Of a DNA stretch of 39,610 bases, positions 1 to 39,610 are shown one piece after another (position 1 is the stretch's first letter; the number at the start of each line of letters is the position of its first letter). The notes under the pieces were generated by a model. It ran no database searches and was not told the origin of the DNA. It was given only the letters and a program-made list of their open reading frames with translations. A program made the translations under genes and the position numbers. This stretch comes from a virus. Location of the stretch: the IMG/VR virus record IMGVR_UViG_3300037346_000270, positions 1 through 39,610 of that record; one strand, 5' to 3'.

Positions 1-127
1 GAGCTGCTTAAAGGCCTTGCTCGATATGGCGTGACAGACATGCCGGTTAAGCAAGGCTATCAGCCAACCACTCAAGGCAGGCTGGACAAGTGCATTTACT
101 TTTGGGCGCTACCCGACATTCCAGAAG
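1..127. repeat. Terminal direct repeat, copy 1 (circle junction)
   Basis: Bases 1-127 are identical to 39484-39610. The neck-protein reading frame and the ORF order continue across the junction, so this is the overlap of a circular or circularly permuted genome rather than two biological copies. The non-redundant length is 39,483 bp. A 127-base exact overlap is also the size left by assemblers using a 127-mer, so it does not by itself define physical ends. Confidence 0.95.
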
Positions 128-18010: not shown

Positions 18011-18418
18011 CTATAGTTCTAGTGCCATCTGATCGTTTTTCGTGATCGTGAACGAGAAGCCAACGATCTTACGCCCTTGTCGTCGTGGCTCTGCTGTCAC
18101 ATGCAGGGCGTCGGCGAACGACTTAGGTAACGCTGCCGGCTGACCGTTTTCCAGTTCCTGCCAGCGATCAACCAGCGCCGCGGTGAACTCAGGGGAAAGC
18201 TGGGCGACCACTACGAAGCTGTCACGCTTGCAGACCAGATACTCGCGGGACACCACGCCATTGCCTGACTTGGCTCCATCCCCCATTGGGGGTTGGGCGA
18301 TAACGCCGCGAGCAACAAGACGCTCTATTGATTGCTTCACCTTGTCATGCCGAGAATTTACCAGATCGGCAATCTGCTGGCTGCTCATCGTGATGGCGCT
18401 GCTGGTTACGAGGCTCAT
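18011..18418 (-). CDS. Rha-like phage regulatory protein
   Basis: A 135-aa protein. The N-terminal MSSQQIADLVNSRHDKVKQ is the Rha signature of a winged-helix region; YLVCKRDSFVVVAQLSPEF and LVDRWQELE follow as in the family. Rha proteins are phage regulators reported to hinder infection in hosts lacking integration host factor; the mechanism is poorly known. It is ATGA-coupled to the DUF2591 gene. Confidence 0.78.
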   Translation of the reverse strand: MSLVTSSAITMSSQQIADLVNSRHDKVKQSIERLVARGVIAQPPMGDGAKSGNGVVSREYLVCKRDSFVVVAQLSPEFTAALVDRWQELENGQPAALPKSFADALHVTAEPRRQGRKIVGFSFTITKNDQMALEL

Positions 18419-18807
18419 TGCATCAGCTCCTTTGGAACGCTGACTTCATGGCCAAGCTTAGCGGTTACGATCGCTCTGCATGCCGCTACTAGAGGAGAGC
18501 TTATACCGCTCTCATCACCTTCTCCGTCGATCATTTCGTATCGTGCATTCCAGCCGGCATCTGAGATCATCCATCCCGCATACCAGCTATATCCATTGGT
18601 GGAGCGGTCAAGACGGATTCCGTGCTTCTCAATCAGCGGGCCTCCTTGACTCCAGTTCACACTTGGAATCCAAGGAGATTGCAGGCCGGGAGCCACGTCG
18701 ATGCGCAATTCTTTTCCGCGAGAGTCATCTATCTTTTTTTTATCGGCTTTTGCCACGGCCCAATCCAATGCCGGGCCAACTAACTCGCAGGTATTAACCT
18801 CAACCAT
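18415..18807 (-). CDS. DUF2591-like phage protein
   Basis: A 130-aa protein with the DUF2591 pattern: start VNTCELVGPALDWAVAKADK, a central WSQGGPLIEKHGIRL, and a C-terminal SPLVAACRAIVTAKLG. Function unknown; common in phage early regions. Its ATG is only about 20 nt after the U-tract of the structured RNA at 18828-18960, and it lacks a strong ribosome site, so it is likely the gene most directly controlled by that leader. Confidence 0.75.
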   Translation of the reverse strand: MVEVNTCELVGPALDWAVAKADKKKIDDSRGKELRIDVAPGLQSPWIPSVNWSQGGPLIEKHGIRLDRSTNGYSWYAGWMISDAGWNARYEMIDGEGDESGISSPLVAACRAIVTAKLGHEVSVPKELMQ

Positions 18808-18827: not shown

Positions 18828-18960
18828 AAAAAAAGGCTTAAGGGTATGCCGGTAGTAGACCTGTTGGATCTGGATCGAGGGGGAACTCAATCCAACAGGA
18901 ACGGCACACTCTTAAACCTTGTTAACCCTCGATCCATAAACGCTGGGCTACTACACCCGT
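18828..18960 (-). ncRNA. Structured leader/small RNA, copy 1
   Basis: Reading the minus strand, four pairs of complementary segments occur in the order D1 C1 A1 B1 C2 B2 D2 A2. D is 18954-18948 with 18858-18852 (7 bp). C is 18935-18926 with 18881-18872 (10 bp, GGATCGAGGG). A is 18920-18902 with 18851-18833 (about 17 of 19 positions pair). B is 18899-18890 with 18869-18860 (10 bp). A2 runs into seven Ts and GTGGG, 20 nt before an ATG. A and B form a terminator-like hairpin; C and D cross it. A second copy with the same order and linkers lies at 25762-25906. The family is not recognised. Confidence 0.8.
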
Positions 18961-18966
18961 TCGCTG

Positions 18967-18994
18967 AGTATACCGATTCTGGCGCATCGGTAAA
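18967..18994 (-). promoter_or_regulatory. Promoter of structured RNA copy 1
   Basis: On the minus strand TTTACC (18994-18989) and TATACT (18972-18967) are 16 bp apart and place the start near 18960, just before helix D1. The second RNA copy has the comparable pair TTTACG and TATAGT. The interval also forms a 7-bp inverted repeat (18971-18977 with 18986-18992). Confidence 0.6.
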
Positions 18995-20357: not shown

Positions 20358-21724
20358 AACTTGATTCCTCGTGGTTTTCGCTGTGGCTCGTCTTCCTGTT
20401 TGCGCTCTGGTGGGCGCCAGTTGTGATCTAAGTCAACGAATCGGTTGTACTGGCCTTCAAATCCGACTCTTACGGTTTGGGCCTCAATATCTCGACCAAT
20501 TCCAATAATTATCTCGGCAACCCCTTTGTCTTCTGTGTCCGGGTGGTAAACCTCGTCACGGTACACGAACAACACAATGTCCGCGTCCTGCTCGATCGAT
20601 CCGCTATCCCGAAGGTCGGAGGCAATTGGGCGCTTGTTCGGTCGCTGCTCAAGCGCCCGGTTCAACTGGGACAGCAAGATCACAGGTACCTGCAGCTCGT
20701 TCGCCATCAACTTGGCCTGCCGTGTGATCTCGCTGACCTTTTGCAGAGAGTTCATGCGCGGGTCTTCGCCGTCCAGCAAGCCAAGGTGGTCGATCATCAG
20801 CATGTCTAGGCCGCCCATTCGCTTCTGGCGCCGAGCCATTGCACGGACACGGCCGATCGTAAGTCCGGGGCGATCGGATATGCGCAGTCCCGATCGCATT
20901 GCGATACCAGATGCCGCCGTAAGCTCGAAACCGTACTTGGCGCCAGCGGTACCATCCTTCAGGCTGTTTAGCGGGATTGTCCCCTCTGCTGCCAGGATTC
21001 GATCCATGAGTTGCCCCTTGCTCATCTCAAGGCTTACGATCAAAACCTTCTTGTTCTCTCGGATTCCGACGTGGCGAGCAAGGCCCATGGCGAATGTGGT
21101 CTTACCCATCTTGGCTCGGCCGGCAACAACGATCAGTTGGCCCGGCTTCATACCGCAGACTGCATCGTCCAGTTTCTTGATGCCGGTACCTAATCCATCC
21201 ATTCGGCCGCCAAGGTCTTCACGGCGCTGAAGCTCTTCGACGTGGCCGCGCATCACATCGGCAACGTCGAGCACATCAGGCGTTGCTGAGTCGCTGTCGA
21301 TCGAAAGAACCTCAGCCTGAACCGCTGCAACCTTCTCTGCGGTCGATTGGGTACTGTAGGCCATCTCATGTATGACTTGGGCAGATGCGATCAGCTGGCG
21401 GTCAATGGCGCGCTCTCGGATCACGTTGGCGTATGAGTGGGCGTTGGCAGTCGATGGAGTGTTCATCGAAATCTCGATGCAATACGCCATTGCCGATTCG
21501 CCGTTCTCCAAGGTACCGATGCTTTCAGCGACGGTCACATGATCGATATGCTTGCGCTCGGACGCCATGGCAAGGATCGCCCGGTAGATCTCTGCGTTCT
21601 GTCCCCAGTTGAAATCGGTGGACTTCAGATCGGACGATAGCAAGTCGACAAGCTCAGGTCGTTTCAGTAGTGCGCCTAGCAGGCCGTGCTCTGCTTCAAG
21701 GCTGTATGGATCACGCATCGTCAT
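20354..21724 (-). CDS. dnaB: Replicative DNA helicase, DnaB family
   Basis: A 456-aa protein from the ATG at 21724, overlapping the initiator gene's stop. The N-terminal domain starts RDPYSLEAEHGLLGALLKRPE, the primase/initiator-binding part. The RecA-type core has Walker A GRAKMGKT at about residues 202-209, Walker B LMIDHLGLLDG, and VILLSQLNRALEQRPNKRP with SDLRDSGSIEQDAD as in DnaB. It unwinds DNA at the fork as a hexamer; the preceding O-like protein probably loads it at the origin. Having its own helicase frees the phage from host DnaB. Confidence 0.94.
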   Translation of the reverse strand: MTMRDPYSLEAEHGLLGALLKRPELVDLLSSDLKSTDFNWGQNAEIYRAILAMASERKHIDHVTVAESIGTLENGESAMAYCIEISMNTPSTANAHSYANVIRERAIDRQLIASAQVIHEMAYSTQSTAEKVAAVQAEVLSIDSDSATPDVLDVADVMRGHVEELQRREDLGGRMDGLGTGIKKLDDAVCGMKPGQLIVVAGRAKMGKTTFAMGLARHVGIRENKKVLIVSLEMSKGQLMDRILAAEGTIPLNSLKDGTAGAKYGFELTAASGIAMRSGLRISDRPGLTIGRVRAMARRQKRMGGLDMLMIDHLGLLDGEDPRMNSLQKVSEITRQAKLMANELQVPVILLSQLNRALEQRPNKRPIASDLRDSGSIEQDADIVLFVYRDEVYHPDTEDKGVAEIIIGIGRDIEAQTVRVGFEGQYNRFVDLDHNWRPPERKQEDEPQRKPRGIKF

Positions 21725-22457
21725 AATTCCCGTCAATAATTTTGTTGAAGTTCGCAGCCTTCAAAAACCAATCGAAGCTCGCACCCTTCATCGAAGTCAA
21801 AAATGCATTGCCTTTGATGTAATCGAAGAACCTCCGCCAGAACTCCAGGTTTTGAAACTTATCGTCCGATTGCCACCTGCACCTGATAGCCGTCTTCCTT
21901 GCGTCGTTCCGTAGCGTTGGCTGTGGAAGCGCTGGAAGGATCTCGCTGTACAGGTCGAAGATCGCAGCGAATGGAACCGGTGCTGCTTTCACTTTCTCAT
22001 TACCGCTTTTCCCATCCTCATCCGGATCGGCGTCAGCCGGTTTGGGAAGAAGATCTTCTTCTTGTATTTCTAGTACTTCTTTATTGTGGTGGCTTGCTGG
22101 TGTCTTGCTGGTTGTTTGCTGGTGATTTGCTGGTGAGTCAGTCTGGTACTTTGCCCAGTTAGTCACTGTAATCACTGAGAATTTCGAGTGTGATTTGATG
22201 GTGATTTGCTGGAGGGTTTCTAGAGCCTTTAGAGCCATCCTCAAAGTGTGTTCTGACACCCCAATTTGCTGTGAAAATTTGATCCTCCCGAACACCAATT
22301 GGCCCGGCTGCAAAGTGATTACCTGATGCCCGACAAGGACGTCTCCAGCCTTGTAGGAAGCCGACAGGATTAGATGCATCCATACGGCCAGGTACTCGGG
22401 CTTCGCACCTATAGCGCTAGTCAGCAGCTTGCGAGATACCTTCACCCAGCTGCTCAT
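21711..22457 (-). CDS. Replication initiator, lambda O-like
   Basis: A 248-aa protein. The N-terminus (SSWVKVSRKLL, then WMHLILSASYKAG and LVFGRIKFSQQIGVSEHTLRM) is a winged-helix DnaD/O-like DNA-binding domain. A Gln/Ser/His-rich linker follows, encoded by the iteron repeats. The C-terminal domain (WRRFFDYIKGNAFLTSMK, then FDWFLKAANFNKIIDGNY) is the part that meets the helicase in this family. It is directly upstream of the DnaB gene. Like lambda O, it seems to contain its own binding sites inside the gene. Confidence 0.82.
   Translation of the reverse strand: MSSWVKVSRKLLTSAIGAKPEYLAVWMHLILSASYKAGDVLVGHQVITLQPGQLVFGRIKFSQQIGVSEHTLRMALKALETLQQITIKSHSKFSVITVTNWAKYQTDSPANHQQTTSKTPASHHNKEVLEIQEEDLLPKPADADPDEDGKSGNEKVKAAPVPFAAIFDLYSEILPALPQPTLRNDARKTAIRCRWQSDDKFQNLEFWRRFFDYIKGNAFLTSMKGASFDWFLKAANFNKIIDGNYDDA
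22046..22215. other. Candidate replication origin (iterons in initiator gene)
   Basis: Four tandem 11-bp units with core TTGCTGGT begin at 22094, 22105, 22116 and 22127, exactly one helical turn apart. Two more related units (TTTGATGGTGA, TTTGCTGGAGG) lie at 22194-22215. On the other side an AT-rich stretch (22062-22087) and a perfect 16-bp palindrome GAAGAAGATCTTCTTC (22046-22061) follow. Iterons plus AT-rich DNA plus an inverted repeat inside the initiator gene is the lambda ori layout. Function is inferred. Confidence 0.7.
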
Positions 22458-25726: not shown

Positions 25727-25755
25727 TTTACGGCGGACTGTTTGTTTCGTATAGT
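25727..25755 (+). promoter_or_regulatory. Promoter of structured RNA copy 2
   Basis: TTTACG (25727-25732) and TATAGT (25750-25755) are 17 bp apart and place the start near 25762, just before helix D1. The -10 and following bases (TATAGTTCG) equal those of the main rightward promoter at 22933. Confidence 0.65.
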
Positions 25756-25761
25756 TCGCCC

Positions 25762-25906
25762 TGTTGGAGAGTGTTAGACCTCGAAGACAAATCAGGATCG
25801 ACGGCTAATAGAGCCTTTTGATGTTCGCTGTTCCGGGATTGGTTGACTTGCCGTCGATCCAGGCCAATTTCGGAGTCTAACCAGCGAACAATCAAAGGGC
25901 TTTTTT
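25762..25906 (+). ncRNA. Structured leader/small RNA, copy 2
   Basis: Helices in the same order as copy 1. D is 25773-25779 with 25875-25881 (7 bp). C is 25795-25804 with 25851-25860 (10 bp, GGATCGACGG). A is 25812-25830 with 25882-25901 (19 bp, one bulge, one wobble). B is 25833-25842 with 25864-25873 (10 bp, two wobbles). Stem A is followed by TTTTTT and GTGGG. The ATG of the next gene is at 25921, with GGGAGAAGGG right after the U-tract. The bases of A, B and D differ from copy 1 but pairing is kept, which supports a real RNA fold. Function is inferred. Confidence 0.82.
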
Positions 25907-25920
25907 GTGGGAGAAGGGAA

Positions 25921-26244
25921 ATGTCGAATCAAAATACGCCAGTAGTTTTAACCGTAGCCGAGGGCTTCGAAGTTCAGATCACTCCTGAGATTTTGGCAAA
26001 AGCATTCTGGGCTATGCATTGTGGTCAGCAGGCTGATTTCCTTGATTCTCTTGGTGCTGAGATCGAAGCAGACCACGTCACGAACAAGAACAGCTACAGC
26101 TACGGCGAGCTGCAATGGTGCTACCTGAAAGACGAACTTCGCCAGCCGGGCCGCGAGCGCGCAAACAACGTACATATGGCCCTGTCCGCATTCGCCTTCG
26201 ACTTCTGGCCACAAAAGCAGAATGGCGCTCGGGAGGGCATCTGA
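25921..26244 (+). CDS. Hypothetical protein behind structured RNA, 107 aa
   Basis: The ATG at 25921 has a strong AGAAGGG site directly after the U-tract of the structured RNA; longer frames would run into that RNA. The protein starts SNQNTPVVLTVAEGFEVQIT and continues ILAKAFWAMHCGQQADFLDS, a pattern seen in other phage early proteins. Function unknown. It heads the recombination block, so the leader probably controls that block. Confidence 0.7.
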   Translation: MSNQNTPVVLTVAEGFEVQITPEILAKAFWAMHCGQQADFLDSLGAEIEADHVTNKNSYSYGELQWCYLKDELRQPGRERANNVHMALSAFAFDFWPQKQNGAREGI

Positions 26245-26998: not shown

Positions 26999-27558
26999 GC
27001 CAGCTTTACGCAATGACCAAGCAAATGCTTGAACTGTCGGCAATGCTTGATACGGACGACGAAGGCCTTAAGCAAGCCATTCAGGACACCATGCAAGGTG
27101 TCGAGGGCGAGTTCGGCAATAAGGCAGACGCTATTGTCATGCTGCGCCGAAACATCGAAGGCGACGTTCTGGCGATTGAGTCAGAGCTTGATCGCCTGAC
27201 CGATCTGAAGCGGGTCAAGAACAACAGCATCAAAGGCCTGACCGATTACCTCAAGCGGAACATGGAGGCAGCCGACCTTAAATCCATCAAACGACCGCTG
27301 TTCACCATCACCCTGGAGGCCGGCAAAGAATCGGTCGTCATTGATTCCGATGATGCGGTGCCTGACGAGTACGTCGCGGTCAAGGTTGCGTCCACTCCGG
27401 ACAAAAAGGCTATCGCGGACTTCTTAAAGAATCTGCGCGAGAAGAATGCCGAAGTCCAAAAGCGAATTGATGCGGGCGAGGACGCAGAGCATGAGCTGCA
27501 ACCTGAACCAGAATGGGCTCGACTGCAGCGCGGCGAAAGTTCACTACGAATCAAATAA
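26995..27558 (+). CDS. Siphovirus Gp157-family protein
   Basis: A 187-aa protein with the Gp157 layout: an N-terminal coiled coil (EFGNKADAIVMLRRNIEGDV, then DRLTDLKRVKNNSIKGLTDYL) and a C-terminal beta part (RPLFTITLEAGKESVVIDSD, then VPDEYV). In Streptococcus phages the family was linked to phage resistance, and it is found next to annealing and SSB genes. It probably helps recombination. ATGA-coupled to the Rad52-like gene. Confidence 0.85.
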   Translation: MSQLYAMTKQMLELSAMLDTDDEGLKQAIQDTMQGVEGEFGNKADAIVMLRRNIEGDVLAIESELDRLTDLKRVKNNSIKGLTDYLKRNMEAADLKSIKRPLFTITLEAGKESVVIDSDDAVPDEYVAVKVASTPDKKAIADFLKNLREKNAEVQKRIDAGEDAEHELQPEPEWARLQRGESSLRIK

Positions 27559-28074: not shown

Positions 28075-28572
28075 ATGCAAAATCAAATAAAACTCAGCCA
28101 GGATCGCCAGAGCAGCCTTGACCGGGCAAAAAAAGAGTTCTTCAGTCATGGCGGAAAGGTGGAGGTTATCGGCTCTGAATTCCGATATGTTCCGATGCCG
28201 TCACGGAAAGAGCCAAGTCTGTCGAAAGAAGAAATCAAGCAGCGCGCACTGGCCGATAAGATCCGAGCGCTTGCGCCAGATATGAATCGGGCGGAAATCC
28301 AAAAGGAGCTGGGCATTTCCTACGAGCGCGTGGCCGGCATATGCAGGAAGTTTTCGATAACACCAAAGCAGGCCTCGGGAACGCACCCGAACAGCCGCAG
28401 GGTGACTCGAAACGATCCAGAGGCTGACCGCCTGATGGTTGAGCGCATCAAGGCCCTGGCAGAAATAGGGCTCAGTAAGAGCAAGGCCTTTAAGCAGCTC
28501 GGCATGGGTGCCTACAGGATGAACCGTCTGATTGATCTGAATGGCATTGTTTTCTCGGCGGTAAAAAAGTGA
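28075..28572 (+). CDS. Double helix-turn-helix protein, 165 aa
   Basis: Two helix-turn-helix-like parts are visible: MNRAEIQKELGISYERVAGI (about residues 64-83) and GLSKSKAFKQLGMGAYRMNR (about 137-156). The N-terminal 45 residues are variable. Such tandem modules occur in phage regulators and recombination-region DNA-binding proteins. The gene is the first after the ssb hairpin and may act on late genes, but this is a guess. Confidence 0.6.
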   Translation: MQNQIKLSQDRQSSLDRAKKEFFSHGGKVEVIGSEFRYVPMPSRKEPSLSKEEIKQRALADKIRALAPDMNRAEIQKELGISYERVAGICRKFSITPKQASGTHPNSRRVTRNDPEADRLMVERIKALAEIGLSKSKAFKQLGMGAYRMNRLIDLNGIVFSAVKK

Positions 28573-29271: not shown

Positions 29272-29344
29272 GCGGGTAAGCATAAGGTTTGCAGCAAGCC
29301 TTCCAAGCTTCGCGTGATGGGTTCGACTCCCGTTACCCGCTCCA
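29272..29344 (+). tRNA. tRNA-Gly (anticodon TCC)
   Basis: Acceptor GCGGGTA/TACCCGC pairs fully, the T arm (ATGGG-TTCGACT-CCCGT) is good, the D loop contains GG, and CCA is encoded. The anticodon loop CTTCCAA gives TCC at 29302-29304. The anticodon stem has one mismatch at its base and the D stem is short (3 bp), so it is somewhat unusual but probably functional. Confidence 0.75.
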
Positions 29345-39451: not shown

Positions 39452-39610
39452 ATGAGAAGGCCCTCGACAAGCTGATCCGAGCAGAGCTGCTTAAAGGCCT
39501 TGCTCGATATGGCGTGACAGACATGCCGGTTAAGCAAGGCTATCAGCCAACCACTCAAGGCAGGCTGGACAAGTGCATTTACTTTTGGGCGCTACCCGAC
39601 ATTCCAGAAG
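39448..39610 (+). CDS. Neck/tail terminator protein, 5' part
   Basis: ATG at 39448 overlaps the preceding stop. The first residues are MNEKALDKLIRAELLKGLAR; the frame runs into the terminal repeat and continues at base 1 of the window to 498. The complete protein is 177 aa. The final 127 bases duplicate those at 1-127. Confidence 0.85.
   Translation, partial: MNEKALDKLIRAELLKGLARYGVTDMPVKQGYQPTTQGRLDKCIYFWALPDIPE
39484..39610. repeat. Terminal direct repeat, copy 2
   Basis: Identical to bases 1-127; see that entry. It should be removed when the circle is closed. Confidence 0.95.

Follow-up and report, generated by a model that had tools for sequence, protein, structure and literature searches.

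What kind of RNA lies between a promoter-like site and a start codon in this phage genome, and what might it do there? The question arises twice in the window (the whole 39,610-nucleotide stretch of virus DNA that was analysed, positions 1-39,610 of IMG/VR record IMGVR_UViG_3300037346_000270), which carries two copies of a strongly folded leader on opposite strands. The two ends of the window (1-127 and 39484-39610) are an exact direct repeat of 127 bp, which marks the record as a circularly closed assembly and the window as probably a complete phage genome.

Anatomy of the leader RNA

Copy 2 spans about 25762-25906 on the + strand (~145 nt), copy 1 about 18828-18960 on the - strand, and their architecture is alike (Table 1). 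From 5' to 3' the order is promoter, a hairpin (H1) with strand P1a in its loop, strand P2a, the 5' arms of stems A and B, strand P2b in the apical loop, the 3' arm of stem B, strand P1b in a bulge, the 3' arm of stem A, the U-tract, the ribosome site and the start codon. P1a, P2a, P2b and P1b are the counterparts of b1, a1, a' and b' of C4 RNAs, and the two sets of names are used interchangeably.

In copy 2 stem A is formed by 25810-25830 and 25882-25903 and is capped by stem B. The stem and the TTTTTT behind it were present as originally predicted, but the stem is 21 bp long with one bulged A, not 19 bp. None of 200 shuffles folded as well (-56.9 kcal/mol, z -4.33). Between the U6 (25901-25906) and the ATG at 25921 lies GGGAGAAGGG, and the gap is 14 nt as claimed. 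Copy 1 had been described as similarly arranged before the DUF2591 gene, and so it is: it has TTTACC/TATACT hexamers, a fold z of -4.46 relative to shuffles, a U7 and, 20 nt 3' of the U7, the ATG of the NinX/DUF2591 gene. The upstream half of the leader (H1/b1 and a1), which was absent from the original prediction, pairs into the terminator hairpin.

The proposed copy 2 promoter, TTTACG (25727-25732) and TATAGT (25750-25755) with 17 bp between them, was recovered by a promoter scan. Its motif match (9/12) is at chance level (1 found, 3.0 expected in shuffles), thus the support for the promoter comes from its conserved position: a -10-like hexamer (at least 4/6) lies 18-23 nt upstream of the b1 7-mer in 32 of 34 copies, several of which are near-identical and hence not independent, against a background of 14%. 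A simple terminator scan reported neither copy's terminator site, because the loop exceeds the length allowed by the scan.

Table 1. Features of the two leader copies and the genes next to them.
Feature	Position	Strand	Basis or match
Copy 2, promoter-like site TTTACG-17-TATAGT	25727..25755	+	promoter scan; position conserved among relatives
Copy 2, hairpin H1; loop 25773-25779 GUUAGAC is b1-like strand P1a	25769..25782	+	covariation; canonical C4 loci with same hairpin
Copy 2, a1-like strand P2a (GGAUCGACGGC)	25795..25805	+	covariation, transcript folding
Copy 2, stem A 5' arm	25810..25830	+	fold, covariation
Copy 2, stem B 5' arm	25833..25844	+	fold, covariation
Copy 2, a'-like strand P2b (GCCGUCGAUCC), stem B loop, partner 25795-25805	25850..25860	+	covariation, transcript folding
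Copy 2, stem B 3' arm	25862..25873	+	fold, covariation
Copy 2, b'-like strand P1b GUCUAAC, A/B bulge, partner 25773-25779	25875..25881	+	covariation
Copy 2, stem A 3' arm and U6, intrinsic-terminator-like end	25882..25906	+	sequence, fold
First gene 3' of copy 2	25921..26244	+	107 aa, no Pfam or PHROG match
Genes beyond 25921..26244			exonuclease (PHROG), weak Rad52 (Pfam), Mu Gam-like, SSB
Copy 1, promoter-like site TTTACC-16-TATACT	18967..18994	-	promoter scan, 16 bp spacing
Copy 1, hairpin H1 (GGG-UGUAGUAG-CCC); b1-like strand GUAGUAG 18948-18954	18945..18958	-	sequence, covariation
Copy 1, a1-like strand P2a (GGAUCGAGGG)	18926..18935	-	sequence, covariation
Copy 1, stem A 5' arm	18902..18920	-	sequence, fold
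Copy 1, stem B 5' arm	18889..18899	-	sequence, fold
Copy 1, a'-like strand P2b (CCCUCGAUCC)	18872..18881	-	sequence, covariation
Copy 1, stem B 3' arm	18860..18870	-	sequence, fold
Copy 1, b'-like strand P1b CUACUAC	18852..18858	-	sequence, covariation
Copy 1, stem A 3' arm and U7	18828..18851	-	sequence, fold
Genes 3' of copy 1	18011..18807	-	NinX/DUF2591 18415-18807, then anti-repressor Ant/Rha-like 18011-18418

Competing pairings and the predicted switch

The 7-nt b1 strand in the hairpin loop pairs with b' in the bulge (helix P1), and the 10-11-nt a1 strand with a' in the apical loop (helix P2). Both pairings cross stems A and B, hence they and the terminator are mutually exclusive. Over all helices of the two sets, both partners change in 35 of 52 pairs and 96.9% of the cells are paired; the covariation score is 0.526 compared with 0.170 in shuffles, and none of 500 shuffles reaches it. 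P1 and P2 alone score 0.311 (shuffles, 0.089), and since the model used for the alignment was built without these two helices, their counts are not fitted. P1 occurs in seven different sequences across the members, all of them paired. The apparent constancy of P2 is partly due to the search pattern, which required P2; its sequence differs with the pairing retained in L238 (replaced), PdC23 (changed) and L394, none of which was found by that pattern.

Thermodynamic folding, without pseudoknots or kinetics, predicted that P2 forms in 19/19 members and P1 in most of them when the transcript ends at b', and that the A+B terminator forms in 18/19 when the transcript is complete. The exception is PdC23, whose full RNA is predicted to remain in the P1/P2 readthrough fold. 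The linker between P2a and stem A is at most about 6 nt, and a rough length estimate suggests that P2 cannot sterically coexist with A+B once the latter (about 30 bp) is fully closed.

What is conserved is thus a terminator together with a mutually exclusive upstream pairing, as in attenuators. The order of elements had been likened to that of a riboswitch or attenuator, and it is the second term that suits the element, with its conserved competing pairings P1 and P2 and its predicted nascent switch to the terminator. A small-molecule riboswitch found no support: Rfam scans gave no match to riboswitch families, there is no conserved core resembling a ligand pocket and the downstream genes differ. 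The variation from member to member is one of base-pairing specificity, as in C4-type antisense RNAs. A self-cleaving ribozyme was also considered, with nothing in its support, and Rfam 15 contained no family matching the leader.

Occurrence of the leader and the genes behind it

The members comprise about 30 phage contigs, the Pseudomonas syringae phages Orisa01-03 and Pantoea phage PdC23. A search pattern consisting of the strand with the highest conservation and the one it pairs with matched 77 stretches in viral contigs, about 30 of which contain the whole element; Orisa01-03 were retrieved by BLAST. A pairing-only descriptor, with zero matches in shuffled sequence, located PdC23 (a BLAST lead) and L394, and a covariance model built from the first member set scored these two independently at 78.5 and 82 bits, respectively. 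A second pattern, built on the P2 of PdC23, added no member, and a terminase-based survey of related phages found none besides PdC23. BLAST matches in Aeromonas phage 3, P. gessardii phage 254, Edwardsiella GF-2 and, at 27511, PdC23 covered the U-tract/ribosome-site stretch only and were dropped; pattern matches in genome_contigs were unrelated chance inverted repeats, and a looser descriptor without the U-tract was too noisy.

The genes 3' of the leader vary (NinX, DUF551, KilAC antirepressors, ERF recombinase, HNH and others), therefore the leader is a module and not a gene-specific switch. A KilAC antirepressor gene follows the RNA directly in PdC23 and L048. The DUF2591 gene had no relatives in viral_contigs, and the RNA was absent upstream of 9 relatives of the gene behind copy 2. 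It was also absent from 78 contigs with a Rad52-like gene, thus it does not travel with that gene. In several phages (L002, 3140 onward; L050, L070 and L046) HNH or other possibly homing-endonuclease-like genes lie directly 3' of the RNA, as would be the case if genes were inserted at this spot; among the candidates tested only the Orisa03 gene had a Pfam match.

Variable downstream genes, an own promoter and an own terminator would also befit a simple small RNA gene that ends in an ordinary terminator; its targets would be host or other phage mRNAs, and the gene behind it would be incidental. We consider this improbable, given that the gap between the U-tract and the start codon is short (13-20 nt) in most copies, that a' and b' are perfectly complementary to strands within the same RNA and that no other target rose above background in the window.

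Two copies per phage are frequent, mostly on opposite strands, and the b1 sequences differ between the copies in 7/7 two-copy phages. Two related cis-acting RNAs heading two early operons on opposite strands are reminiscent of putL and putR of HK022 (PMC9378689), and the leader could in principle be a processive antiterminator of that type, a folded nascent RNA that attaches to RNA polymerase, which then reads through terminators further on. This is very unlikely, as the put RNAs are about 70 nt long and consist of two stem-loops without a U-tract (PMC9378689), whereas the leader, at about 145 nt, departs from that anatomy, has a terminator at its end and shows competing folds that are conserved.

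Searches for the RNA in 25 Pseudomonas and 398 Pseudomonadaceae genomes gave no match, thus nothing points to a form carried by prophages. It is this absence from 398 host genomes, not gene content, that suggests that the member phages are virulent.

Comparison with C4 antisense RNAs

C4 RNAs (RF01695) are immunity regulators of temperate phages, found in phages P1 and P7 and many Pseudomonas prophages, and act in trans, as established for P1 and P7. Matches to RF01695 above the cut-off were seen in 199 of 298 Pseudomonadaceae genomes, often at least 14 per genome. In the P1 locus b1 (TTGACAG) and a1 (GTTAGTG) are followed by the outer stem, a' (CACTAAC) in a hairpin loop and b' (CTGTCAA). In 24 Pseudomonadaceae C4 loci that we read (L403-L426), b1 was present in 24/24, a1 in 22/24 and a2 in 21/24, b1 being assigned by an automatic 7-mer search, so that a few assignments may be off.

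The leader has the same order of strands: the complementary b1, in a hairpin, and a1 lie upstream, a' is in a hairpin loop and b' precedes the 3' arm of the outer stem. The b1 hairpin is of the GGG-N8-CCC type seen in the 24 loci, one of which (L421, 1/24) even shares the pair GUGAGAA/UUCUCAC with the leader family. An antirepressor gene follows some of the leader copies, and C4 of phage P1 controls ant (PMC8201110).

There are also clear differences. The leader has neither an extra 5' hairpin nor a2/b2 over the ribosome site, and no downstream bipartite a2/b2 target was found in the window above shuffled background. Its outer stem is followed by a U-tract, which is the case in 0/24 C4 loci, whereas 20/24 of these have a separate terminator between a1 and C4; in the leader there is none, and a1 almost touches stem A. 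The RF01695 model gave no match at E 10 in 21 records (20 with the leader RNA, and phage 15b) and none in scans of the window, while in the same search phage P1 matched at 68.8 bits. Because of the lack of a model match and of a2/b2, and because the U-tract is relocated behind the C4-like stem, we regard the leader as probably a C4-like variant outside RF01695. It may overlap the motif that Weinberg et al. (2010; PMC2864571) named c4-a1b1.

Possible mode of action

Judged from sequence, the anatomy, the covariation, the mutually exclusive folds and the C4-like layout argue for a compact antisense RNA of the C4 type in which antisense, target and terminator form one molecule and which governs its own readthrough, and we consider this the probable interpretation. 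By analogy with C4, the leader may act in trans on a target RNA; actual termination, readthrough, trans action and timing are what we infer in the following.

Transcription would start at a host-type promoter just upstream of H1 with the b1 loop, a1 following, and would proceed into a C4-like A/B hairpin; the outer stem and U-tract of this hairpin would serve as intrinsic terminator, with the ribosome site of an early gene immediately behind it. In the short nascent RNA a1b1 would pair with a'b', keeping the 5' arm of the terminator from its partner, a readthrough-prone state; after emergence of the 3' arm the A+B terminator would be more stable and transcription would stop. The terminated product, an RNA of roughly 145 nt, would have a' and b' exposed, and these would be expected to pair with a1b1 in other nascent leaders, driving those toward termination. 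Action on other leaders is envisaged because a1 and stem A seem to be joined by too short a linker for self-pairing. Two early operons would thereby be held back by RNA alone, in a self-limiting way, and the b1/b' specificity would differ from one operon to the other.

A self-limiting attenuator of the antisense kind, comparable to pT181, P4 CI and IsrK, is consistent with the predicted switch, with the exposure of a' and b' and with the lack of a second target. In the pT181 attenuator (PMC4878617) antiterminator and intrinsic terminator folds likewise compete and an antisense RNA decides between them; that RNA is fully complementary to the 5' part, whereas in the leader it would be its own terminated product. 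The CI RNA of satellite phage P4 with seqA and seqC (PMC4825925), compared here by description only, also has its antisense target upstream in its own leader, and pairing leads to premature termination, but it is processed from a longer leader and has an extra downstream target. IsrK of Gifsy-1 (PMC4825925) shares the promoter, short RNA, terminator and readthrough mRNA with an antirepressor gene, and its short form acts on the long form, but it switches translation on, whereas the predicted switch in the leader is termination. The IsrK model (RF01394) gave no match in the window, Orisa03, PdC23 or 15b.

We therefore tentatively propose that the terminated product of a leader is an antisense RNA terminating later transcripts of the same leader, giving the phage two self-braking timers with distinct b1/b' codes, without a protein regulator or lysogeny. 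A less likely reading dispenses with the trans-acting RNA: the choice between P1/P2 and the terminator would be set in cis, by the speed of transcription, by a ribosome or by a protein, of the phage or the host, that binds H1. Every pairing partner is indeed within one transcript, no second target was found in the genome and H1 is a small exposed hairpin; but the layout matches that of C4 loci, whose RNA is trans-acting in P1 and P7, and a general protein sensor would not need b1 to differ between the copies of two-copy phages.

An immunity role makes little sense for a leader found in phage contigs that look virulent and in no sampled host genome. If the role proposed for the leader is true, C4-type regulation would shift to early-gene timing. 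Target, antisense and terminator are packed in about 145 nt, and the family offers natural sets of differing pairing codes; antisense attenuation by so compact a leader is directly testable with reporters and could be useful for RNA circuit design.

A shorter relative and minor features of the genome

Pseudomonas phage 15b (L353:29937-30064) has a shorter relative of the leader, without U-tract, before a Rha-KilAC antirepressor gene; its promoter and its downstream antirepressor gene are those of PdC23. The two pairings are in topologically equivalent places (P1 UCGACCC/GGGUCGA, P2 CACAACA/UGUUGUG), and when the upstream stretch was shuffled 200,000 times, both arose together in only 4 cases. 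The presence of these pairings without a terminator tempers the attenuation model: termination may not be the only output.

Three further features of the window were observed. A tRNA match at 29272-29341 (+) is weak (30 bits, gathering 29) and was not called by ARAGORN. The first bases of the record (1-22) have a perfect 22-nt inverted copy at 28479-28500, within gene 28075-28572. Gene 21711-22457, directly upstream of the DnaB gene, contains 11-bp tandem repeats (TTTGCTGGTGA-like) at 22082-22138 and 22183-22217, and these repeats may be replication-origin iterons.
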